Shown here piece after piece: positions 30,108-51,164 of a stretch of 64,000 nt of DNA. How positions within the stretch are numbered: position 1 is the stretch's first letter; every line of letters starts with the position of its first letter. The position numbers were made by a program, and so were the translations under genes. This DNA is from Jaminaea rosea (taxonomy: Eukaryota; Basidiomycota; Exobasidiomycetes; Microstromatales): contig NW_020289984.1 in the NCBI RefSeq assembly GCF_003144245.1, positions 186,001 through 250,000 on the forward strand. Direction: 5' to 3'. The notes below the pieces were generated by a model that was given only the letters and a program-made list of their open reading frames with translations, searched no databases and was not told where the DNA came from.

Positions 30108-30784
30108 TTACTTCCCCATGTACCAGATGTGGAGAGAACTGGTCACTTCGCCAGCCTTCAAAGCGACCGGCCATTCGCCTGCCAAGAAAGCAGAGAAAGC
30201 AGAGACGCGTGTCAGTGCAGTCACGAAGCGCCAATTTGGCTACTCGCCCGCTCTCTCGCTATGCTCACAGTCATCCAGAGGATTCAGGTAGAGGCAGGTA
30301 CCACCAGCCATACCGCTTGGCTGCTCAGAGTTCAGTAGACAGATTGCCCACTGGTCTCCTCTGCATTGTCCGCGTGCGAGGCGGCCGTAGCCAAAGGGGC
30401 CGCAGGGAGAGTCTGCCGCGCAACGTCGGAGCAGCGACGTCAGCGGCAGGCAAGGAAGCGGATATGGCGGGCGGCCGTGATACACGATTGATGTCGATCT
30501 TACTTACTGATCTGTAACATGTTGGGACCGAGTGCGCCCCAGTCTGCCACCTGTACGGTCGGCTGCCCTGCATCGCCACCCTGGCACTGAAATACGACCC
30601 TGGCTCCCTCATCTATCCGCGTAGTGTTGGTGGCAGAGCAGAAGCGCGAGTAGGTGACGGGCGCGGCCCTCTTCTTCGTTGAGTGCTCTTCGCCAGCCAC
30701 TTTGAAGGGCGCATGCGAGCAGACGGCGTGCTTTGCCGTGCAGAGGGCTGCTGAACTTGCGAGCAGGATGATGGTCACAAGCAT
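30108..30784 (-). CDS. Small secreted eight-cysteine protein, array copy A (most diverged)
   Basis: Three exons (30784-30508, 30412-30269, 30178-30108), phase 1 at both junctions, encode 163 residues. The signal peptide MLVTIILLASSAALCTA is followed by KHAVC, so the mature chain should begin just before the family's His-x-x-Cys. An insert rich in Lys and Arg (EEHSTKKRAAP) follows, absent from other copies. Exon 2 keeps SPCGPFGYG, QWAICL, GTCLYL and LDDC; exon 3 encodes EWPVAL and ends IWYMGK. The Cys of DDC is split across intron 2 as T|GC, as in every copy. At the 3' end of the array; no known domain recognised. Confidence 0.85.
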
Positions 30785-31216
30785 GAGGAAAGGGCAGAGC
30801 AGAGCGTAAGGTGAAGAAGCAAGGAGTCAAAGAGAAGGTCGAGAGGAGAGATCAAATAGTCCTCAGGCAAGCCGCCAGGAGCGGGGCAAACAGGGCTTCA
30901 TCGGCTCACGGAGAACACTGACAGTACTCTTTGCAGCCCTACATTGGTTGGCGCCGCAGTTTCGGAGGAGGCATCGACCGAAGTACGAACCTGCTGGGCA
31001 GAGGCAGACCTTCCAATGAGCGCAGTTCGCCATGCCGGCAGGCACACGACTGCCGCGGGGCAAAGTTGGTCGCGATCGGTTGGCGGTACTGAAGCGTTCT
31101 TATTGACAATCGGAAGCTCGCAGGGGGCAAAGGCAAGCGGCGACGGCGACTCCGCTCTGATGCATTTGAGAGAGCAAGGCAGCGTCTCAGGGTGCAATGC
31201 CGTCTTCAGGCCCACC
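30785..31216. other. Intergenic region in the array
   Basis: 432 bp between copies A and B. I looked for an extra or decayed family copy (HxxC, PCG..GYG, DDCEWP) and found none. Confidence 0.5.
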
Positions 31217-31824
31217 CTACTTTCCATTCCAGAACCAAACCTGGAGTTTGATGGGCAAGGCGGTGTACTCTATCGTGTGCGGCCATTCGCCTACATCGAG
31301 CGTCGCGATGCAAAGTCGTCAGCAGGTTGCTTGGCTGCTCATTCCTCTGCAATCTCTTCGCGCTCACAGTCATCGATGGACGCCCAATAGTAGCAGTCGC
31401 CAACACTGGAATCGCCAAGGCATGCGGCCCAGAGTGTGCCGTAGCAGTTCTCGTGCTTGTCCCGGCCGTATCCAGTACCATCTGCGCAAGGGGTAGCTGT
31501 CGGTGAGGAGACCACCACGTGAGCTTATGAACAGGGATGCAGCCAGTCGCTCTCGCACTGACCGAGCTCGAGCGTCTTGCGCTTCAAAAATCCCCAGTCA
31601 GCTACTTTTGTGTTCAGGCCGCCGATGAAGCCTGGGTCGCAGCCATAAATGGCCACATCGGTAGAGTTGATGTGGTCTATGATTCCTGCATGGCAGTATT
31701 CGTGGTAGCCGTACTGAACAGGGCTTCCGCCACCCGGCTTGTAGCTGCACACGAAGTGATCAGCCACGGCCGGCTGGACAGCGAAGGTAGCTGCGAGCGT
31801 GAGGTGAAAAAGGAGCGCGAGCAT
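31217..31824 (-). CDS. Small secreted eight-cysteine protein, array copy B
   Basis: Exons 31824-31563, 31496-31368 and 31290-31217 encode 154 residues. Signal peptide MLALLFHLTLAATFAVQPAVA; the mature part starts DHFVCSYKPGGGSP, then YGYHEYC, NSTDVAIYGC (with an N-glycosylation sequon) and VADWGFLKRKTLEL. Exon 2 encodes TPCADGTGYG, NCYG, WAACLG, DCYYW and IDDC; exon 3 encodes EWPHTIEYTALP and ends VWFWNGK. All eight family cysteines are present. The open frame runs further upstream, but this ATG is the one that begins a signal peptide. Function unknown; extracellular location inferred. Confidence 0.88.
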
Positions 31825-32273
31825 GACGGGGATAGCGGGCAGCGGCGTGGAGAACAAGATGTGAGGTGTGGTGATAAGAAGAGAAGGAGCAGCCTCCCAC
31901 GGCACAAGAGGTTTGTCAGGCTGGCTGCAGCTACCTCTCTCGGATGATTTGACGACTGCCTGAGAAGATCAATGCTAAGCCGCACCCACGAGCCCATCGC
32001 ATTCTGTCAGCACCATGGCCTGATAAGCGTAGGTGCGGGCGGAGACGTAAGCGAGGGTCTAGCTGACCGCCCAGTACGCGACAGCGAGGGCGAGGGGCGC
32101 ACACGGGCCAGGATGGTGCGGATTAGAATTCTGTCAGGCCGTCGAATGTGTCATTGAGGCAGACAAAGGGCGACGAAAGCTTCAGCTAGAGCACCGTACT
32201 AAGGCAGAGCGACAGGTGGACAGCAGGATTGCTGCGCACCCTCATCACAATGATCTTACTTTGATCAGCATCG
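31825..32273. other. Intergenic region in the array
   Basis: 449 bp between copies B and C; no family motif or other gene seen. Confidence 0.5.
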
Positions 32274-32897
32274 TCAAGAGTCGTGATACCACACGATGAT
32301 TTGGCGAGGCAAATCCTTGTACTCCTTCGGCCCAGGCCAAGCACCTAGGAAGCCATCGGGGCAGGTCCATAGTCAGTTGCACTTCCTCATCACACAAGCT
32401 GCAGGCCGAAGCGGCTTCCTCACGTACAGTCGTCATGAGATGCCAGATAATAGCAGGCGTCGTTGTCCGAGCTATCCAAGCAGAAGGCCCAGAGCTTAGA
32501 ATAGCAATCGCCGTTGGCCCGGTGTCCGTACCCGCCGGTACCGCAAGGAGTTGCTACGGTGCAAGTGGCATGCATCTCGCGACGCGAGCGGTGCATCAGC
32601 TCTCTCCTTCGCTCTTCGCGAGCTCTGGTCCTGTCACTGACCAATCTCGAGCGTCTTGGGGGCCAAAAAGCCCCAGTCGGAAATACGTGCGCTGTTGTTG
32701 TCGCCGCCGTCAGAGCGACAGACATAGGCGCACACTTGGGTTGAATTCGCCGGATTAATTCTAGTTGCCACGCAGTATCTCTTGAAGCCGTACGTCGAAG
32801 GAGCTTGAGAACCAGGTTTGTAGCAGCATGTGAAGTGGTCGGCGAGTGTGGAACGTCCCAGCAGTGCGAGTGCAAGAGTGAGCGTATTGGCGAACAT
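32274..32897 (-). CDS. Small secreted eight-cysteine protein, array copy C
   Basis: Exons 32897-32642, 32553-32428 and 32344-32274 encode 150 residues. Signal peptide MFANTLTLALALLGRSTLA, then DHFTCCYKPGSQAPSTYGF, RYC and NSTQVCAYVC. Two extra cysteines in exon 1 (CC and VC) give ten in the mature protein, room for one more disulphide than its neighbours. Exon 2: TPCGTGGYG, DCYS, WAFCLD, ACYYL and HDDC. Exon 3 begins AWP rather than EWP and ends IVWYHDS. Introns fall at the family's positions and phases. Donor of intron 2 is GTACGT, as in copies D and F. Confidence 0.87.
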
Positions 32898-33265
32898 GGG
32901 CCGAGCAGATCGCAATTCTGGAGAGGTCGAGAGCGGGAATGGAAGGGGATGAAGAGAGCGAAGGCTATCTTGCAACTATGTAGCGCTCAGAGATGCTCAG
33001 ACCATCTCTCCTGGTCTGCTACCCGGGATTGCAAGATTTTGACCCACACACGTGCGTACAATACGTTTGGCGCCATTGTATGAAAGCCATTGACAGCAAT
33101 GAACAGGTCGGGCAGGCAGCAACGCCACGATCTCATTGCACTCAGCTCGCTCGATACGCGGCATGAAGGAGTATAGAAGATAATGTGGGAAAAGCAAGCT
33201 ACCAGGCGACGCCAGCATCGCCCACCCCAGCATGTGCTTCGTAATGGCACGCAGCGTAAGCGGAG
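32898..33265. other. Intergenic region in the array
   Basis: 368 bp between copies C and D. A 78-codon minus-strand frame here starting at 33233 lacks family motifs and a convincing signal peptide; not called. Confidence 0.5.
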
Positions 33266-33883
33266 TTAGGGAGGAGCGAAGTACCAGATGGTGATCGTAG
33301 TGGGAAGCTTCGCGTACTCAAGCTTTCCAGGCCACTCGCCTACGAGTTGCCGTTTGGCAGATGGGCAGGGTCAGATACACTCTCGGCAGGGCTGTAGCTG
33401 CTGGAAAGCTACTGGACGTACAGTCATCGTGGCGGTCCATATAGTAACAATTTCCCAGATCAGAGTTGTCCAAGCACATTGCCCAGTGCCTGGAGTGGCA
33501 TCCGCCGTCAGCAGCGAAGCCGTAACCGCCGGAACCGCATGGCGTAGCTACAGGTTGCGGTCAGCAGAGCCTGCGTGTCAGCTCTCCGGCCGAGTCAAAA
33601 GCATGCCTCGATCCTTACCCATCTCGAGCGTCTTCGGCGCCAAGAAGCCATAATCCGCGACACGGGCATTGCGATTATCCCCCAGTTGAGAGCTACAGTT
33701 ATAAATCGCGACCTCGGTTGACTCCGCCGAACCGCTCTTGTTGGCTACGCAGTAGAGTTTGTACTGATACGTCGAAGGGTTCTTGGACCCGGGCTTGTAG
33801 GTACATACGACGTGTTTGGTCAGCGCCATGCGACCAACGCATGCGAAGACGAAGGCAGCGGGGATCAGAATGCTGTGAAGCAT
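33266..33883 (-). CDS. Small secreted eight-cysteine protein, array copy D
   Basis: Exons 33883-33619, 33547-33422 and 33339-33266 encode 154 residues. Signal peptide MLHSILIPAAFVFACVGRMALT; mature start KHVVCTYKPGSKNPSTY, then LYC, STEVAIYNC and RVADYGFLAPKTLEMG. Exon 2: TPCGSGGYGF, GCHS, WAMCLD, NCYYM and HDDC. Exon 3: EWPGKLEYAKLP then ITIWYFAPP. All eight core cysteines are kept. The sequence is closest to copies C and F in exon 1. No catalytic or binding motif from a known family recognised. Confidence 0.89.
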
Positions 33884-34177
33884 TTTAGCAGGGCTGAGCG
33901 AAGGTCGTCCAGCAGCGAAAGGGAGGATGAGGAGCAGATCACAGGTCAATACGCATGCTGAGATGCTTTGTCGCTCGTCGCTTGTTCGTCCGTCGGTCGC
34001 TCGTTCGCTCATTCATATGCTTCAAGGCAAATGAGCCAGTTAGACACGTGCTGAGCCACAATGAAAGACATAGGGCTGTGTTACAGTGGCTCGCGCTTGC
34101 CGTTGGGCAGGATATCAAATCAGGAGCCGAATCAGGAGCCGTGCTACGGAGCCCCCGCTCAGCCATCTCGCAATGCA

Positions 34178-34812
34178 TTAGTCGGCGGGATGGAACCAAA
34201 TGTGCATCTTCTTAGGCAACTGATGCCATTCAAATTGCACTGGCCACTCGCCTGACCGAGCGGGCCAGAGGGGGCAGCGCGCGAAAAGCAGAAGGGTCAG
34301 CACTCGTGAGAGCCAAGGGGGTTCACCGCTTTACGCACAGTCGTCGTGAGATTTCAAGTAGTAGCAATCGCCCGCATCTGAGTTCTCCAGACAAGCCGCC
34401 CAGTGGCGACCAAGACAACGGTACTTATCGTCCACGCCGTATCCCTTGTCGCCACACGGAGTCCCTATTCGGCGAGGTGCGCGGCGCAACGTTGTCAGCT
34501 CATCAGTCTCGCTTGCCTTCATGAGAGTCGATGCTCACCGATCTCGAGCGTCTTCGGCTTCAGAAAGCCCCAATCGGCCACCCTCTCGTATGTCTTTCCG
34601 ATGATCGCCAACTGACAGGTGTACTCGGCCACGTCCGTAGAGTTGAGCGGGTTTTCGAGTCCTGCGGCGCAGAAGACCTTGTAGCCGAAGTTGGCAGGAC
34701 TGCCGGCTCCAGGCCTCCAGAAACAGGTAGCGTGCTTCGCGTCGGCAAGGCGCCAAGGAGGAAAGACCGTGAGGACCAGAGCAAAGGCGAGGTGGAGTGC
34801 AAAGGCTAGCAT
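34178..34812 (-). CDS. Small secreted eight-cysteine protein, array copy E
   Basis: Exons 34812-34539, 34464-34339 and 34251-34178 encode 157 residues. Signal peptide begins MLAFALHLAFALVLTVFP and probably ends at LADA, giving a mature start KHATCFWRPGAGSP. Then FGYKVFC, NSTDVAEYTC and RVADWGFLKPKTLEI. Exon 2: TPCGDKGYGVDD, RCLG, WAACLE, DCYYL and HDDC. Exon 3: EWPVQFEWHQLP and HIWFHPAD. Intron 2 has a GTGCGT donor. Start set at 34812 because the adjacent upstream codon is not ATG. Confidence 0.88.
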
Positions 34813-35118
34813 CACGGGTCTTGGTACCGTAGGAGACTCAGGATATTGAGATAGTGAGAAGGAAAGGACAGGTCAATGCGATCTGATGTACTCTGAGATT
34901 CTGCTCGGCTGAAGTTTATGATCAAGCCCTGGACCCAGGGATCTCACGCAGCGAAGGTAACCGTTGTCAACAGCAAATGCACACTACAGACTGGGGCGGG
35001 GCCTACAGTGGAGCGAAAGTGCGGCCAGATTTGAATGCCATTCACAGTATTTGCAGGCTGCAGGAACCGTAGGGGGTCACCTCCGTCGCTTGCGCTGCGG
35101 CGCCCTCATAGCCTCGCA
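34813..35118. other. Intergenic region in the array
   Basis: 306 bp between copies E and F; no extra copy seen. Confidence 0.5.
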
Positions 35119-35736
35119 TCACTTTCCCGCCTTAAACCAGATATCGACGGCGCTCGGCAAGTCCTTGAACTCCGTGGTCGTGGGCCATTCGCCTGAGTGG
35201 GTGAGTCGGGCAGACAGGGGCGTGAGAAAATTGCAGCCCATCCCTATCTAAGATGAGGTCCGAGGAGCGACGTACAATCATCATAAGCGCCGACGTACCA
35301 GCATTGGCCCGAGTCGGAGCTGCCCAAGCACATTGACCAGGTATGGCCGTAGCAGAGCCCGTTGCTGACATCAGTCCCGTACCCATCGGCGTTGCAGGGG
35401 CAAGCTGAGCGTGTGTCAGAGGTGTCGCTTCAGCGCTTGCACTAGGTCTGCTGTGTGGATCCCCTGCGACCCACCCATCTCGAAAGTCTTTGGCTCTATG
35501 AAGCCCCAGTCAGCGACCCTGAGAGTCGTGTTGCCCTGAAGGTCCGAAACACACTGATAGATGGCTACGTCAGTGGAATTGAGGGGATTATTTTTGCCCG
35601 CAGAGCAAAACTTTTGGTACCCATAAGTCGAAGGGCTTTTAGGCCCTGGGGAGTAATTGCACGTGAAGTGCTTGGCCACGACGAAGCGCCAGCCGAGGAC
35701 GACAAGGAGATGCAGAGAAGACGCGACGGTGAGCAT
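35119..35736 (-). CDS. Small secreted eight-cysteine protein, array copy F
   Basis: Exons 35736-35475, 35404-35276 and 35192-35119 encode 154 residues. Signal peptide MLTVASSLHLLVVLGWRFVVA; mature start KHFTCNYSPGPKSPSTYGY, then KFC, NSTDVAIYQC and RVADWGFIEPKTFEMG. Exon 2: ACPCNADGYG (an extra Cys before the usual PC), LCYG, WSMCLG, QCWYV and YDDC. Exon 3: EWPTTTEFKDLP and DIWFKAGK. The GT-AG introns and phases match the other copies. C-terminal GK is shared with copies A and B. Confidence 0.88.
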
Positions 35737-35882
35737 GATTGGCGATGTTGGTCGCAGCGACTACAAGGTGATGGAAAAAAAGGAGCGTAGGACATGCCGC
35801 GATGCAGCATCTTTGATTCTTTCACTGGACGCAAGAAGAGCAGTTGCACATCTCAGCCCTCTGCCCTGCTCAGCATTTGCGA

Positions 35883-36617
35883 TCAAGCGGAATGGTTTCT
35901 TTGGGTGCTACTTGCACTTATTGGAAGCCCGCAGACCGGTGTTTCTTCGGCTTGCTCCCGATGCCCCGTCCTCTTGCCCCAGTCCCCAGAATCATACCAG
36001 ATATCGATGTATACCGGCAACTGTTCAAGCTTGAAGCGGCGAGGCCACTCGCCTGCAGCAAAGGGCGGTGAAGAAGCGTCAGCTTAATGCGTTCCTCAGC
36101 GAGCTAGCCGGGGGCGAGTTGAACGCACAGTCATCGTCCGCAGACATCCAAAAGCAGTTTCCTTCTCGCGAGATGCCAAGGCACATGGCCCAAGAATCCC
36201 CATAGCATTGGTCGTCCTGATCCCGACCGTACGCTAAGCCTCCACAGGGACTCACTGAGGGAGCGTCCGGAAAGGCGAAAAGGTCGGGAGAGGTGAGCAG
36301 TGCACCCGATGAGCGACGAGATGAAGCCGCCGGTACCAACTCATGTCCAATATTTGGCCAATTTTCCCCCCAAAGCTGGCCACCTTCGTTCCTTTGGCTC
36401 CAAAGTAGCCCCAACCACACCGGTATTCGGCAGTGACACCCATTTCGACAGAGTTGCCCAATTTCGCCTGGCAGAAAAGCTCATAGCCGTAATGCTCCGG
36501 ACTGCCGGGGCCGAGCTTCCACGAGCAGGCGACATGGGCTGCCAGGGCAAGGCAATGAAGCTGCTGGAGAAGGGGAAGGACAGTGAGCGTCAAAGCGGCG
36601 AGCGAGAGAGCCAACAT
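35883..36617 (-). CDS. Small secreted eight-cysteine protein, array copy G (long tail)
   Basis: Exons 36617-36341, 36254-36129 and 36052-35883 encode 190 residues. Signal peptide MLALSLAALTLTVLPLLQQ ending near LALA; mature start AHVACSWKLGPGSPEHYGY, nearly the same as copy H. Then LFC, AEYRC, and exon 2 SPCGGLAYGRDQDDQC, WAMCLG, NCFWM and DDDC. Exon 3 encodes EWPRRFKLEQLP and IDIWYD, then continues about 35 residues beyond where other copies stop (GDWGKRTGHREQ...RNHSA). The first junction is uncertain: the phase-1 model uses donor GTTGGT; donor GTACCG with acceptor GAG at 36248 is also in frame and would give MSCPCGG. Confidence 0.83.
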
Positions 36618-36791
36618 GGGAAAGGGGATATGGAGTGGGGGAAGAGCAGATAGCCAAGACAATCAGTCAGATTGACAGTGCGATAAGATACGACCGCAGA
36701 GTCACAACCGTTATTTGGCTCCATGCTTGCCCTTTGCTTTCCTCGAGCCTCCTCGCACTACGGCCTCAAGCGGAAAATTTGTCCTCTGCTG

Positions 36792-37516
36792 CTAGATCCG
36801 AGTGTCAACAGTGGGTGCGAGGGTCCGGTGAGGGCTCGACTGTCTCTCCGTGGCAGCCGCAACCCGGCGCTTCTTCTTTCTCCCGCCCCCGCCCGAGTCG
36901 TACCAGACATTGACGAACGTGGGCAGCTCGTCGAAGTCAAAGAGACGGGGCCACTCGCCTGAGGCGAAACAGCGGAGGATGTTGCTGTCAGCTGATCGTC
37001 GTTGCAAATGTGCTGCTTGTACTGTATGCTTGCTAAGTGCGTACAATCGTCATCGGCAGACATGTAGAAGCAGTTTCCATCTTCGGACCGACCTAGACAG
37101 ACCCCCCAATGGGCCGAATAGCATTCGTCGTCGAGGTCACGGGCATAGGGGAAACCGCCGCAGGGACTGGCTGAGCGAGCGAGAAGAGCGAAGAGCTCGG
37201 CTCAGTAAATTCATCTTCTGTCTCATAGAGCTGAGCCGCTAGTCTTACCAAAATCGAGCGTACGCCCAAGATTCCACCCCCAGCTGGCCACCATGACACC
37301 AGGTGTCCCAGCGTAATTTTGGGAGCACTTGTACTGTCTCCACTCTGTTCCACTGCCCAGCTCTGCCTGGCAAAAGTGCTCGTATCCGTAGTCTTGAGGA
37401 CTGCCAGGCCCAAGTTTCCAGGAGCAGGCGACGTGCGCTGCGTGGGCGTGATGGGATTGCGCTTCGAGAAGGGTAAGGATGAGAAGCAGGATCAGCGTCA
37501 GCGTGTTGGAACCCAT
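36792..37516 (-). CDS. Small secreted eight-cysteine protein, array copy H (long basic tail)
   Basis: Exons 37516-37249, 37170-37045 and 36958-36792 encode 186 residues. Signal peptide MGSNTLTLILLLILTLLEA extends to HHAHA; mature start AHVACSWKLGPGSPQDYGY, then HFC and YKC. Exon 2: SPCGGFPYARDLDDEC, WGVCLG, NCFYM and DDDC. Exon 3: EWPRLFDFDELP, VNVWYDS and then a tail GGGGRKKKRRVAAATERQ continuing to VDTRI. Copies G and H form the most recent pair, sharing the exon 1 block and the long tail position. First gene of the array in transcription order. Confidence 0.87.
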
Positions 37517-37898: not shown

Positions 37899-39851
37899 TT
37901 ACCGCAACCAGCCGCCAAGGCCCCACCCTCCTTGCGTGCCACCACTCGCTGGAAGCCCATCCTTCATCACTGCTGCCTCACCCTGCTGCTTCCCACCACC
38001 AGGCGCAGAATCAGCCCTCAACAGCTTGAGCCGCGCCAACGCTCCCTCATCCCTCGCCCTATTTGCGTCTTCGATGATCTCTCCGTCCTCTTCATGCACG
38101 CCGAGTCCGGGAGATCGCAGCGCATTATAAGCTGAAAACTCGGACGAGGCGGGCGTAGAAGGCTTGATGACTGAGGGTGAGCGCGCATGACCCGTACTCA
38201 GCAGCATCGAGGCCGCGGAGGCGGATTGAACGCGCCGATGTGGTGGCGGTGTTGGGTTGACTGCCATGAGGGGAGGTAGGTCTACAGGAGCGTTTTGCGG
38301 AGTGACTGGAGGCGGGTCCGATGCCCACCTGTCTTCGGCCTCGAGCTGCTCATGCACGTCTTGCAACGAGGATGAGGCGGAGGTAGAAGGCGCAACACTC
38401 GATGGCGCGAAATACGTTTGGCTTCGCCGATGCTTCGGCATGGGGCCACGAGCGGGCGAGGCGCTCGTGGCAGCCGTCGTTGTGGATGCTGCAGCTGTCT
38501 TGCCCACGCCCAGTAGTGATGGAGTTGATAGCGGGGCAGCGAGCGAGTCTTCTGCGCCGCTGCTCGAGCTGCTGATGACACTCGCCGAGCTCGACGCCCT
38601 TGCCAGCTTGGGCGTCGATGCAGCCAGGCTGGTGAGCAAGGCTTTTGCATCCTGTGTACCACCGGCAGTGGCATTGGGGTTGCTGCTGCTCGCGCCCCCA
38701 GCCAACATCCTCTCTAATCTCTTCGCAGCCGTCTTCCCAATAGTAGCACCAACATCTTGTGCCTCAACGATGCCTTCTAGCCTAGTCGATGGGCTGACAT
38801 GCACCTCTGGCCTGGCCAAAGTCCTCCATCTAGTGCCCCCCTCCCCGCCGGACAAGACGGCCCTGTTCGACGCTATACTGGTGGACGCAAGAAGTCCCTC
38901 CATCTCGCGATTCACCTTGAGCAATGCATCCTCCATGGAGCGATTACGCTCCAGCTGAGCCCGAAGCTCCCGCTCCCGCTCTTCGAGCTGGGAGTCCATC
39001 TCGCGTTGTCTTGCTTGCAGGGAGGAGAGGTATTCACGATCGGATAGGGTGGAGTGGAGTAGGAGGTTGGCTGCTTGCAGGGCTACATTGGCAGAGACGA
39101 GGGCGGCATTGAGGGCTGCATCGCCCTCATCGCTTGAATCGTCGTCGCCGTTTTGGCCTGATTGGTCTTGGTATCCGGCCATCGCTTTGTGCTGCAGCGC
39201 AGTCATCTCGCCGCGCAGACTGTGTGATGAGGCGGCCGAGGTAGAAAGCGTGCAGCCAGTCGAGCTTGGCGTATCCAGTGACGAAGAGGTGATGCTCCCG
39301 CGGTACGAGTTCAAGTCCTCGTCTGTCGGCTTGATGAGGTGCTCACCGCAGATGCCGAACTTATCCCTCAACGAGCAATCTCTCTTGACCTCAAGCGGAC
39401 TCGACTTGCCCTCTCGCTCATGCTCCGGCACCTCATCTTCACAGTCACAATCCAGCGTAGTCGATGCTGCAGTCCAAATACTCCATCGCTGATTGTTCGC
39501 CACGCCCGAGGTACCAGACGAGTCCGGGTCGACGAGAGTATCAGACGAGATCATCCGCGACTGACGCCACTGTTGCTGGCTGGAGCGAGGGGATGTCGTG
39601 CGCGCCTCACCTACCGAAGAGGTCGAGGTCGATGCCACTGAGGCTATGGATCGGGTGGATCGAATCGTTGCAAAGGGATCGCGTGTTGATCTTGTTGACG
39701 AGGCAGCGTGGGCGGCGCCGTGTTGTTTGGGCGTGGGACCCGGCCTTGTCTTATGCGGATCAAGCGAGGGGGAGCGAGAGGATGATGGTGATGACGAGGC
39801 GCGAGACGGACCTTGCGTTGAGCGCAACGTCAGAGGAGCAGGAGGAGCCAT
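37899..39851 (-). CDS. Unrecognised Ser-rich protein with central coiled coil, 650 aa
   Basis: Single-exon ORF from an ATG. Residues 1-120 are Ser/Arg-rich and disordered. A short conserved-looking block follows (WSIWTAASTTLDCDCEDEVPEHE and RDKFGICGEHLIKPTDEDL). Residues ~235-325 form a strong coiled coil (NVALQAANLLLHSTLSDREYL, REMDSQLEERERELRAQLE, MEDALLKVNREMEGLL). The C-terminal half is low complexity, closing with GGWGLGGWLR. No signal peptide or membrane segment. Overall it looks like a scaffold or cytoskeleton-associated protein, but that is only an impression from composition; family not recognised. Confidence 0.76.
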   Translation of the reverse strand: MAPPAPLTLRSTQGPSRASSSPSSSRSPSLDPHKTRPGPTPKQHGAAHAASSTRSTRDPFATIRSTRSIASVASTSTSSVGEARTTSPRSSQQQWRQSRMISSDTLVDPDSSGTSGVANNQRWSIWTAASTTLDCDCEDEVPEHEREGKSSPLEVKRDCSLRDKFGICGEHLIKPTDEDLNSYRGSITSSSLDTPSSTGCTLSTSAASSHSLRGEMTALQHKAMAGYQDQSGQNGDDDSSDEGDAALNAALVSANVALQAANLLLHSTLSDREYLSSLQARQREMDSQLEERERELRAQLERNRSMEDALLKVNREMEGLLASTSIASNRAVLSGGEGGTRWRTLARPEVHVSPSTRLEGIVEAQDVGATIGKTAAKRLERMLAGGASSSNPNATAGGTQDAKALLTSLAASTPKLARASSSASVISSSSSGAEDSLAAPLSTPSLLGVGKTAAASTTTAATSASPARGPMPKHRRSQTYFAPSSVAPSTSASSSLQDVHEQLEAEDRWASDPPPVTPQNAPVDLPPLMAVNPTPPPHRRVQSASAASMLLSTGHARSPSVIKPSTPASSEFSAYNALRSPGLGVHEEDGEIIEDANRARDEGALARLKLLRADSAPGGGKQQGEAAVMKDGLPASGGTQGGWGLGGWLR

Positions 39852-40273
39852 CTTCGCAGACTGAGGATGCGCAGCAGCAGCCGCTTTAGTCTGTGTTTCG
39901 GGTGAGTTTCGGATGCGCCGGCGGCGACGTCGGGCGAGAGGTCAAGCACAGCGGCTCATCCACCCAGCGAGCTTGGTGAGAGGAGTGAGCGTCGCGCTGG
40001 TCTGTAGGTGTTTCTGTTGTGAAAGGGAGATGGTTTGGATGATGGTAGGGAGCTGAGCGCACCCTTGTCAATTAGTGATCGTATTTTTGGCCGTCAAAGC
40101 GGCACCGGCGGCGGTTGAAGCCCCTGGACGGACAGGCAGGCGGCGGAACGAGCGCAGGCCCATTGCTGCTTTGAGCGCCGCCCTTTCCCCTTTCCGCCCT
40201 GGAGGCTTTGGCTTTGACATCAGCACCAAAACAAGGCAACCTCAACTTCCTCACGAAAAGCCCCTTGGCAAGA
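39852..40273. other. Divergent intergenic region
   Basis: 422 bp between the starts of the 650-aa gene and nicotinamidase. The frame upstream of the nicotinamidase ATG is open but has no ATG, so it is taken as leader. Confidence 0.5.
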
Positions 40274-47011: not shown

Positions 47012-50000
47012 ATGAACAACACGACTTTGTCCACTCCGTCTACCTCATCGTCTCGAGGCAGCGCAGGGGACAGCAGCCACGCTCAGATCCGCACACGATC
47101 AGATAGCATGACGGGCAGCGGCGGCGATCCTTCTAGCCGGTCCATCCTCCCCGGCTCCAGTCTCTTAGGCCTCAGCACCCCCGAACGGCCTGGCGGCTCG
47201 TCTTCCTCCTCCTCAGGCGGTACACTTCGACACAAGGCCTCGCTCCTCTCTGTCAGATCCTACGATGGAGGTCGATGCTCCTCCCCAGCTCCATCAACAC
47301 ACAGCGTCCTCTCTGCCCTCGAAGACGACGACCCGGACGCGATTGAGGACCTCGAAGACTCTATGCGACATAGTGGCACAATTGATGAGTTTACGAGGAT
47401 TATCACTGAATTTCGCGTGGAGCGGAAACGCCGAATGCAGAATAGTAGTGGGAGTAATGGAAGCCGACGAGGCAGGGAGAGTAGCGGCCTTGTTGTTGGT
47501 AGCGGTGAGCCACCTGCGTCAAGAAGCACGACGCCTACTCCGCCGAGAGTAGGGCAAGACAGTGGACTGCTTCCGCCAGCAAATGGGAGAGATAGTTTTG
47601 AGTCGACTAGTGGGGATGTAGATTCGCAGCAGAGGAGAAGGTGTACATGTTGCTGTGGGCAACATAATTGCGAAAGAGCGAAAAGAGCAACGGAGGAATG
47701 GGCGGACATGGAGTCGTGAGTATTGGCAAGGCATCGGAAGACCTCCATACCATCGCTTGTAGCTCGCTGACGACCCTTTTCGTTCATCGCTTCATAGCGA
47801 TCTCCGTCTCGCCGCTGAGATTGGCCAAGCTCTCCTCCGAAAGCACGACGACCTTTCTGCCCAAACTTCAACGATCGAAGCACGCCATGCATCTCAAGTA
47901 GACAGCCTAATGAGCAAGCTTGCTTCCAGTATCAAGGAGTCAAACGACTACTCTCGACGTTTAGCGGCTACTACTCTCAACCTCGAGGCAGCCGACTCGA
48001 GCAATCGGGCCCTGCTCGCCGAGCTGGACAACTGTCGGCGAGAGCTGTCACGCATCAAAGGCGAGAAGGCACAGCTTGTTGCTGCGGACAGCAAAGCACA
48101 GAGGCTGGCAAGGGAGCTGGAGGATACTCAGCAGGAGGTCCTTGCTGAGCGCGAAAAGAGAGAAGCGGCTGAAGCGAGGAGTAAACGGGCGGCCGAAAGA
48201 GTAACGCAGTTGAGTGAAGCATTGAAGAGGCAAGTAGACGAGGGCCAGACAGCACGGCAGACTGATGCAACGGGTGCGAAACTCGGGGAGGACATCGTTG
48301 AGGCTGCGAAGGAGCGCTTCAGGGCTAGCGTCGCTGCTGCGCAGCAGGCCGGCGAAGCTGCTTTATCATCGACAGCCGTCGACGCCAGCGAGCTTGCGGC
48401 CATGGCGTCTGCGAATGAAGCCCTAGAGAAGCAGGTTGACCAGACGACCGCCCTTCTCGCGGCCGCCAACGAAGAGCTGGCCACATTGAGGGAGGAGCGC
48501 GCGGGTTTCTTGAACACGGGTACATCCTCTGCAGGTGGACGCAGTATCCCATTCCTGGGCCGCTCCACGCACGCACGCAGCGCCAGCGGAATGAGTGATG
48601 GGCATCATCGCCTTGCTTTGGCTTTTGCTCACCAGCAGCACCTTCAACAGGATCTCAACAGCTCAAGCGCTAGCCAAGCAGATGAAACGGCCGTGCCAGG
48701 AGGAGGGGCTCCCTCGCCCTCTCTGGCCGACGAGCTCTCTTCGCACGAAATGGTCGCTCAGCCTTCACGCTCTCCGTCTGGTCGCCCACTCTCACTCAGT
48801 CTTCATCGCCCGCTACTCCTCTCCGATCGCTCTGCGAGCAGAGCATCTGCCAGGAGTGATGTTTCCCCGCGGCTGGGCGGAAGTCGTCTGCTATCTCCGA
48901 CGATGCCTCCATTTGAGCAGGGGTCTGCAGCAACGTCAGCAAGCATTACGACGCATGCTGCACCTGCAGCAACAGCAGCACCAGTTGCAAGCTACACATC
49001 ATCCCCTGGAACGACCGTAGACTCTGCCGCGACTGTCAGCGCAGGTAGACGGTCTGTCAGCTCTGAGGCCCAAAAGATACGAGCGGAATATACTGCTATG
49101 CACGCCGCCGCCCCCCCTCCGCCTTCCGACAACGGCTCGACAAGCGATACGATGAGTAGCGCTGCTCCCTCAGCCTCGACCGCTCCGACGAGCTCCGCTG
49201 CTCACGCTCCCGTCCGCAGCTCATCGACATCCTTACCTCCGGCCGCGCCAAAGCGCGATCCCCGCACATCGCATCTTCTCACCCTTCTCGACTACGTTAC
49301 GCGACTCTATACTCGACTTTCGACTGCGGACGTTGACTCCCTGTCTCGCCGTCTGCAGCGCCAACACTTGGCGGGCGGAGATGTCGGCTACTTGGCGAAG
49401 GTGACGATCCAGGGGATCACCCGCGACGCCGAGGGGTTGAGGGAGCACTTCAGGCGTCTCATCGAGCAGGAGGCACGCGAGCGCCAGGTCCAACCGGCGG
49501 AGGGAACAAAGAGTGATGCAGCCTCTTCGCGCTCCTCTGAAGCAGGGGCAGTAGGCACAGCAAATCCACAGCTGGAGAGTCTGTTGACTCGCAAAGACTT
49601 CTTCACGCTAGTCAAGTTGCTGAGGGACGTCCTTTTCGAGCTCGCGAGGCTACGAAGCTGTATCAATGAGGTGCAGCTTAACCCGGGGCATGCGACAAGA
49701 ATTTTGAATGAGCATCTGAATGGCGGGCAGGGGAGTGGGAAAGGAGAGGAAAAGGGTGTGGGAGGATGGTTTGGAAAGCTACTTGCCGGTGGACTCGCAG
49801 TCGCTGGTGGTGGGAGCGGTCAGTCTTCGGCAACTCCTGCCTCAGCAGCGCCCCCTTTGTCTGCTACCGCTTCGAATGCGGCAGCGAGTCCCGCCGCAGA
49901 TGCAGGCGACGGCGCTTCTCCTGCCGCCGGCCAGGCTACGCTTACAAGAGGAGCAAGCATCAGTCGCCCAGCGAGTCGGTCAGGACCTGCCGGCCTGGCG

Positions 50001-51164
50001 AATTCCGCGGCTTCATCACTACAACGCTCGGTCTCACGCGGAGCAGCTGTAGCTAGTCGCCCCTCAACGGTCGCCGTAGAAGTCAAGGGTGGGACCCGCG
50101 CTACATCCGCCGAGTTCCCTCAGGATCAAACGGAAGGCCCAAGCACCGCGTCATCAATATCAGCTGCCGCCCCTGGAGGCCTGACACGGCCGATGCCTCG
50201 AGCGACACGGGGTCGCTCCGGTCTGCTAGGCGTACCGGGCTCTTCATCCGTCGGCGCGGGCGCTCCTCACCCTCACCTCCTTTCGCGGGTACAGAGCCGC
50301 AACCTCAGCGGTCTCTTCGCCGGCGCTCCAGCTGATGCATGGGAGTCGCTGCGTACTACAAATGCGCCGGTGCCAAGCTCGGGTACTACCACTAGTGCGA
50401 CCCACGACTTCATTCGCTCGCCGGGATATCATGGTCGCAATCGCCCACTTTCGCGAATAGTGGACGATGATGAGGTTTCATTGCACCATGGAAAGCCTGG
50501 ATGGGGGTCGGATGACAGTGGAGACCCGACGGCAGCGGACTCTAGTCGCAGAGGCTTGCAACGGCGCCCGCGCGGCCTGTCTGACAGCTCGATTCACTCG
50601 ACCTTTCTCGAGCACGGAACTGCTGAAGGCGAGGAGAACAACGCCAAAAGCTCTTCAGGCCACGGCTTAGGCATCTCTCACGGCGCGAGTAGCAGTCATG
50701 CCGCCCCTGCGGGTCGTATCATGAGCCGAGCAACTTTGGCCTTGCAGGCGCCCATTGCGTTGAAAGGAGGAGGAGGAGCCGGAACTGCTTCTGTGACGCG
50801 GGCATACGGTTCGAGCAGGCAGTACGACGAGGAGGACGAGGACACTGACGGCGACACGGCTAGCACGCTAAGCGTGAAGGCTCCTCCTTCCACTGGTAGC
50901 GGTGCCGACAAAGCACGTTCGAAGCCGGCTCGGCCGAACACCGCAAGTGGCACGGGCGGAGGCCTGCTCTCTGGCCTCGGGCAAAGTATGTGGTCCGGCT
51001 TCCCCTCGTTACGACCTCAGCCCTCTACTGCTACGTTGAGCACAAGCGCTGCTGCCAGTGTCGCAGCTGTGCTTTCCTCATCACCCGGGCATGTGAGCAC
51101 GATGAGGCCCGGAGGTGGGAGTGGGGGTGGGTTGGGAGGGAAGATGGGTCGCGATGGTGCGTGA
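47012..51164 (+). CDS. Large coiled-coil protein with CC1-box-like motif (putative dynein adaptor)
   Basis: Two exons (47012-47715, 47798-51164; 82-bp intron, phase 2) encode 1356 residues. The first ~115 residues are Ser-rich; then DPDAIEDLEDSMRHSGTIDEFTRIITEFR, and a cysteine cluster RRRCTCCCGQHNC. Just across the splice comes DLRLAAEIGQALLRKHDDL (~236-254), which has the AAxxG-xxLL pattern of the CC1 box of BICD-, TRAK- and HAP1-type dynein adaptors. A coiled coil follows to ~400. The middle is low complexity; a folded block lies near residues 675-810 (LLTLLDYVTRLYTRLSTAD, LLTRKDFFTLVKLLRDVLFEL). The tail is again disordered. Adaptor function is inferred from the motif only; I do not recognise a named orthologue. 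Confidence 0.8.

Follow-up and report, generated by a model that had tools for sequence, protein, structure and literature searches.

In smut fungi, small secreted cysteine-rich proteins can be encoded by multigene clusters, such as the mig2 cluster of Ustilago maydis, and the RNase-like effectors of powdery mildews and the MAX effectors represent expanded effector families built on one scaffold. Large secreted repertoires are usually taken as a mark of pathogens. Here, we describe a tandem array of eight genes (A to H) in a stretch of 64,000 nucleotides from Jaminaea rosea, a basidiomycete of the order Microstromatales (contig NW_020289984.1, positions 186,001 to 250,000; this whole stretch is called the window, and positions refer to it unless a contig is named). 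All eight genes lie on the minus strand and together occupy positions 30108-37516, from the stop of gene A at 30108 to the start of gene H at 37516. They resemble mig2-like clusters in their tandem arrangement, their small, predicted secreted, cysteine-rich products and their occurrence within the Ustilaginomycotina, and differ from them in belonging to a family of at least 86 loci with an eight-cysteine pattern, an A-x-H-x-x-C start and a DDCEWP motif, in a phylloplane species. With the RNase-like and MAX effectors they have in common a conserved scaffold carried by numerous diverged paralogues, whereas the J. rosea family shows no sequence match, a strict eight-cysteine core and a proportion of nonsynonymous differences (pN) below that of synonymous differences (pS) in 10/10 gene pairs.

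Secreted cysteine-rich multigene families are a known kind, which this family joins on three tested criteria: an N-terminal signal without a further membrane segment (by hydropathy scan, secretion being predicted), a conserved even number of cysteines (eight in the core) and expansion by tandem duplication (by the cluster-label test given below). With middling confidence, we interpret the array as a local group of genes from a large multigene family whose products are putatively secreted, disulfide-locked, single-domain extracellular interaction proteins, effector-like in a wide sense. A plant-effector role would be only one option among these, and the targets may belong to the plant or to other microbes.

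The array and its genome-wide family

Gene models in the window were rebuilt from the DNA by enumeration of ATG codons, GT-AG introns and open frames (Table 1). They run exactly over 30108-37516, the span given by the initial annotation, which had described eight paralogous minus-strand genes of 150-190 amino acids (aa) with three exons each. Both introns of every gene are of the GT-AG type, in phase 1 and 66-95 bp long; the first directly precedes the PC block, and the second falls within the codon of the last core cysteine (DD-C/EWP). As had been claimed, eight cysteine columns are conserved, in 8/8 window proteins; pairwise identities are 29-55%, and the proposed secretory start is borne out by a hydrophobic N-terminal segment in the hydropathy scan. 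Chance or artefact as the origin of the array can be ruled out because splice phase, cysteine columns and low pN against pS agree.

Among the motifs listed by the initial annotation, the mature start (K/D/A)HxxC was recovered in all eight proteins, DDCEWP in seven (gene C has a variant) and WAxCL in six, while YGYxxFC (3/8), VADWGF (3/8) and PCGxxGYG (4/8) are matched by fewer proteins, so that these blocks are less strict than originally written. The motif (I/V)W(Y/F), described as terminal, occurs in 8/8 proteins, but in G and H a further 36 and 35 residues, respectively, lie beyond it. The array is uninterrupted by other genes, with intergenic gaps of just 146-449 bp (not searched for very small genes), and all 24 pieces found in the 64-kb window with a family hidden Markov model (HMM) fall within it (24/24, corresponding to eight genes with three exons).

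At the level of the 16.6-Mb, 21-contig genome, the family comprises at least 86 loci, some with and some without introns, spread over seven contigs; the window array contributes eight of them (Table 1). For this count, pieces from genome searches were grouped by place and frame-broken or fragmentary pieces were left out, and not all 86 loci have been shown to be intact. Searches with genes E and A returned 110 and 59 pieces, respectively, at E <= 10, and those with three further members 83, 97 and 94 pieces at E <= 0.01. Overall, 78/86 loci were modelled, comprising the eight window genes, 36 intronless copies (one without a start methionine) and 34 others of uneven quality, five of which were dropped for the tree (73-model set). 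Median identity among the 78 models is 32%. Inside the arrays, frame-broken or fragmentary family pieces were also observed (C20:171758-171956, 177502-177905 and 211165-211260), as birth-and-death evolution would leave. A shared promoter motif was sought in 43 upstream stretches of 250 bp, with nothing convincing found.

Table 1. Coordinates of the window genes and places of the other family loci in the genome (C10 is the contig on which the window lies)
Feature	Position	Strand	Protein (aa)	Exons	Remarks
Gene A	30108..30784	-	163	30784-30508, 30412-30269, 30178-30108	GT-AG, phase 1/1, eight core cysteines; most divergent array member, 29-36% identity with the other seven
Gene B	31217..31824	-	154	31824-31563, 31496-31368, 31290-31217	
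Gene C	32274..32897	-	150	32897-32642, 32553-32428, 32344-32274	DDCAWP variant; 10 cysteines in total
Gene D	33266..33883	-	154	33883-33619, 33547-33422, 33339-33266	
Gene E	34178..34812	-	157	34812-34539, 34464-34339, 34251-34178	
Gene F	35119..35736	-	154	35736-35475, 35404-35276, 35192-35119	
Gene G	35883..36617	-	190	36617-36341, 36254-36129, 36052-35883	C-terminal tail; weak intron 1 donor, GTTGGT
Gene H	36792..37516	-	186	37516-37249, 37170-37045, 36958-36792	basic C-terminal tail
C10 loci	353-364 kb				9 loci
C10 loci	404-411 kb				8 loci
C10 loci	417-421 kb				3 loci
C10 locus	526 kb				1 locus
C10 locus	545 kb				1 locus
C10 loci	570-580 kb				9 loci
C20 loci					33 loci
C4 loci					5 loci
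C14 loci					3 loci
C2 loci					3 loci
C1 loci					2 loci
C7 locus					1 locus

The three-exon splicing of the initial annotation is supported indirectly by public J. rosea proteins equal to models of paralogues outside the window. All 151 residues of P0013 agree with the three-exon model at C10:353 kb, and P0012 is identical to the two-intron model at C10:573 kb from the model's seventh residue on. Two intronless models were likewise confirmed by exact matches, to P0007 and P0008. For the window genes themselves, the sole public J. rosea model found is P0001 (BDZ90DRAFT_261278; window 33266-34812), which consists of residues 1-104 of gene E, one further residue and residues 5-154 of gene D. 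It is likely a mis-joined gene model of E and D, an annotation error through which a fungal protein came to carry the label of a cytokine receptor. From 32 intronless members used in a second protein search, two were returned as identical public proteins, which in a word-limited search is a hint rather than a count. Public annotation thus seems to lack part of the family or to have joined its genes wrongly; if this is true, secretome comparisons resting on gene models undercount it.

Cysteine core and named families

A strong hydrophobic N-terminal start was detected in 75/78 models with the hydropathy scan, which is not a dedicated signal-peptide predictor, and the same scan found a membrane-like stretch of 19 residues beyond residue 35 in 0/78. 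The pattern A-x-H-x-x-C, with an alanine two residues before a near-invariant histidine, is present in 64/78 models; judged from this pattern, cleavage probably leaves a mature chain beginning x-H-x-x-C. The histidine itself, close to the likely cleavage site, is found in 72/78 models, and the two aspartates before the last cysteine are near-invariant as well (each in 71/78). All eight core cysteines are present in 64/78 models. In the 73-model set, C1, C6 and C7 (here and below, C followed by 1 to 8 numbers the core cysteines when no position is attached) occur in 73/73 models, C8 in each of the 71 rows that are filled at its column, C2 and C3 in 69 models, and C4 and C5 in 70. Beside these near-invariant cysteine, histidine, tryptophan and DDC-W columns, 42/144 well-filled alignment columns carry less than 1 bit (signal-peptide columns included).

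The pattern of cysteine losses gives a hint of the bridges. C4 and C5 are both absent from C20_201259, and C2 and C3 from C20_212413, C10_420459 and C10_571556, the last being an untrusted model. C3 alone is lost in C4_1015324 (C5 is also flagged there, but a cysteine adjoins the C5 column), and C8 is lost in C1_271808, C2_1242139 and C10_354923. The loss of C2 in C10_544625 is a modelling error, the missing cysteine being visible in the fragment P0015, and the loss of C4 in C10_411007 and C10_362137 goes with doubtful splicing. The truncated model C20_202975 lacks C4, C5 and C8, and two further truncated models, C10_407085 and C2_1244616, lack five cysteines each. Among trusted models, C2 and C3 were jointly lost twice (C20_212413, C10_420459), as were C4 and C5 (C20_201259, C20_202975). 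When four double losses are chosen at random, 0.2% of the draws consist of two disjoint pairs, each occurring twice, and 3.4% give some set that fits one pairing; the four losses above were picked after the table had been seen, and both values are only a guide. Such joint losses hint that C2 may be bridged to C3 and C4 to C5.

The family appears to fit no named protein family in the Pfam, NCBIfam and PDB sequence libraries searched, in agreement with the initial annotation. In Pfam, no fitting family was found with 54 members, for which the best matches were IL6Ra-bind at E 0.00056 (eight window proteins), IL6Ra-bind at 0.003 (32 intronless members) and an unrelated family at 0.14 (14 others); apart from IL6Ra-bind, the best match overall had E 0.0066 (one member of 32). 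NCBIfam gave no significant match for the eight window proteins (best E 0.051). Among PDB sequences the best match had E 0.097, and one of these searches listed only amphiregulin (at that value) and a designed protein (E 0.46). Literature searches on Jaminaea, secreted proteins of Microstromatales, mig2 and similar protein families yielded no description of this family among the papers listed.

The precomputed label on P0001 raises the question of a true homology with the cytokine-receptor domain IL6Ra-bind (PF09240). P0001 scores 26.4 bits, above the cut-off of 24.3, the best window match comes from gene D alone, and the profile is matched by 2/8 window proteins at E <= 10 and by 2/32 intronless members at E <= 1. 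However, gene D on its own stays below the curated cut-off (20.8 vs 24.3 bits), and only the fused P0001 passes it. The likeness concerns a short stretch around the first core cysteine and spans just positions 8-51 of the 96 in the profile; 0/14 further members match at E <= 1, and no cytokine receptor appeared in the PDB sequence search results. With half a profile, few members and the real gene D under the cut-off, we judged this match to be due to chance and consider homology most improbable.

Relatives outside the assembly were sought in three protein searches, which returned 5, 6 and 4 proteins, five of them named J. rosea and ten from the source 'lgn', taken to be assembled public reads; of the five obtained with the window proteins, only P0001 was named. 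No other named species was found in these searches, which require shared words of five letters and draw on no more than 100 such words, so that distant relatives can be missed. Near-orthologues of window genes are among the 'lgn' proteins (P0002 to E, P0003 to G, P0004 to H and P0005 to A), and P0015 has 41 residues exactly in common with the model at C10:545 kb despite an E value of only 0.94. As a side observation, the 'lgn' set (P0002-P0006, P0009-P0011, P0014, P0015) indicates that a close relative or a second J. rosea strain has probably been sequenced. Prokaryotic and viral relatives were not found by tblastn with one intronless member (genome contigs, 25 pattern matches; viral contigs, 11).

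The absence of named matches also bears on the idea that the proteins are weapons of interference competition, that is, small secreted disulfide-rich antimicrobial or killer-type proteins acting against leaf microbes and diversified by tandem duplication. Small size, signal, cysteine richness and high copy number would suit such a role, as would the leaf-surface habitat (PMC7766764) and the listing of another Jaminaea among rice phylloplane yeasts in one report (PMC7142645). Yet no known antimicrobial or toxin family was matched in Pfam, the row for that other Jaminaea in a table of PMC7142645 is empty in its last column, and the short gaps within the array leave little space for partner immunity genes (small genes there were not searched for). 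We regard this explanation as rather unlikely.

Age, duplication and intron history

Selection was assessed over the whole chain in ten chosen pairs, four from the window and six intronless, which are not all nearest pairs of the family. In 10/10 pairs, pS was 0.64-0.83 and pN 0.23-0.36; the synonymous rate dS was finite in 4/10 (1.46-1.97), with omega values of 0.15-0.25. Since pS is near saturation and pN low, the family members are old, constrained protein-coding genes. An excess of amino-acid-changing substitutions between paralogues, common but not obligatory in effector families of plant pathogens, was seen in none of the ten pairs.

Old paralogues with low pN relative to pS also fit maintained subfunctions, as proposed if the proteins served the fungus itself, either as structural or ligand-binding parts of its wall, matrix or spore surface or as scavengers of sugar, lipid or metal, with stage-specific paralogues. 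The near-invariant histidine and DD could hold a metal or ligand. On the other hand, at least 86 loci at such low median identity seem an excess of diversity for a structural component, and a C-terminal hydrophobic stretch for a glycosylphosphatidylinositol (GPI) anchor was found in 0/78 models. Such a structural or scavenging role is, in our view, unlikely.

Cluster labels placed on the 73-model tree required 23 changes, compared with a mean of 51 and a minimum of 47 in 200 shuffles. Copies from one place therefore tend to cluster on the tree, the pattern expected from tandem duplication. The bootstrap of this tree had not settled, and some gene models are uncertain. On the best tree, F, E, B, D and C stand together (support 99/93) and are joined with G and H at 87/75, G being closest to H (100/100), while A is placed elsewhere; a single clade of all eight window genes is not on the best tree and is not rejected either (approximately unbiased (AU) test, p 0.077).

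Introns vary across the family. Beyond the homologous sites before the PC block (phase 1) and in DDC/EWP (phase 1), a site after about residue 44 is used at C10:570-580 kb and on C1, in phase 0 in nine models and in other phases in two possibly mis-modelled ones. The 36 full-length intronless copies lie on C20, C4 and C7. Intron presence and absence changes at least seven times on the 73-model tree, against a mean of 24.9 and a minimum of 18 in 200 shuffles. A single origin of all intronless copies was rejected provisionally, the one-clade tree fitting worse (AU p 0.018). The simplest reading, partly based on uncertain models, would be repeated intron loss, perhaps via reverse-transcribed copies. 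Separately, two copies in the otherwise intronless C20 cluster (C20:181353-181859 and C20:182250-182768) carry a single 84-bp intron at a site unique among the models, for which an intron gain is possible.

Possible functions in a leaf-surface fungus

If the array encodes extracellular interaction proteins, the chain would be cleaved to begin with x-His-x-x-Cys and exported from the cell. Its fold would be held by two core bridges among C1, C6, C7 and C8 in addition to C2-C3 and C4-C5, and this constant disulfide frame, with its near-invariant histidine, tryptophan and DDC-W, would carry the variable segments. These segments may bind differing extracellular targets on the leaf surface or in the apoplast, either plant molecules or molecules of co-resident microbes, and the repertoire would be maintained because they bind different targets. 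The habitat is compatible with such a role: J. rosea is named as a phylloplane species in one report (PMC7766764), and another mentions the isolation of a related Jaminaea from a Lantana leaf (PMC8880017).

Several points weigh against this reading. At least one core cysteine is absent from 14/78 models, although some of these are truncated or poor, and C4_1015324, without C3 but with C2, runs counter to a strict C2-C3 pair. Unlike in classic arms-race proteins, mean pN, taken over the whole chain, is far below pS. In addition, we know of no report of J. rosea as a pathogen. Many diverse, apparently extracellular variants in arrays might also be expected of a polymorphic repertoire for self/non-self or mating recognition; nothing in the data singles out this explanation, which we consider very improbable.

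The initial annotation had placed the array between housekeeping genes and called this setting typical of fungal effector islands. Genes of ordinary kinds do surround it: a Na/Ca exchanger gene directly flanks the array on one side, and genes for aconitase, NOB1, RRP7 and UDP-glucose pyrophosphorylase lie farther out in the window, while the effector island itself can at most be inferred. That pN is low while pS nears saturation suggests long-standing constraint on the family and not a fresh burst of arms-race evolution; an effector role is still compatible with this. The other flank of the array is formed by a 680-aa frame (37899-39941, minus strand), which, like a second long open frame of 1133 aa (47763-51164, plus strand), has no Pfam match at E 0.001.

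More tentatively, the proteins could form an undescribed family, possibly with a new fold, of long-maintained combinatorial extracellular binders directed against neighbours or host molecules, an organised system and not the leftovers of a pathogenic ancestor. We put this forward as a somewhat doubtful proposal; if it is true, the family, with its intronless and multi-exon branches, would rank among the most extensive sets of secreted proteins in a leaf-surface fungus that is not known to cause disease. A large, old and constrained family in a leaf-surface, yeast-like fungus provides a concrete case for the role that such repertoires may have without disease.

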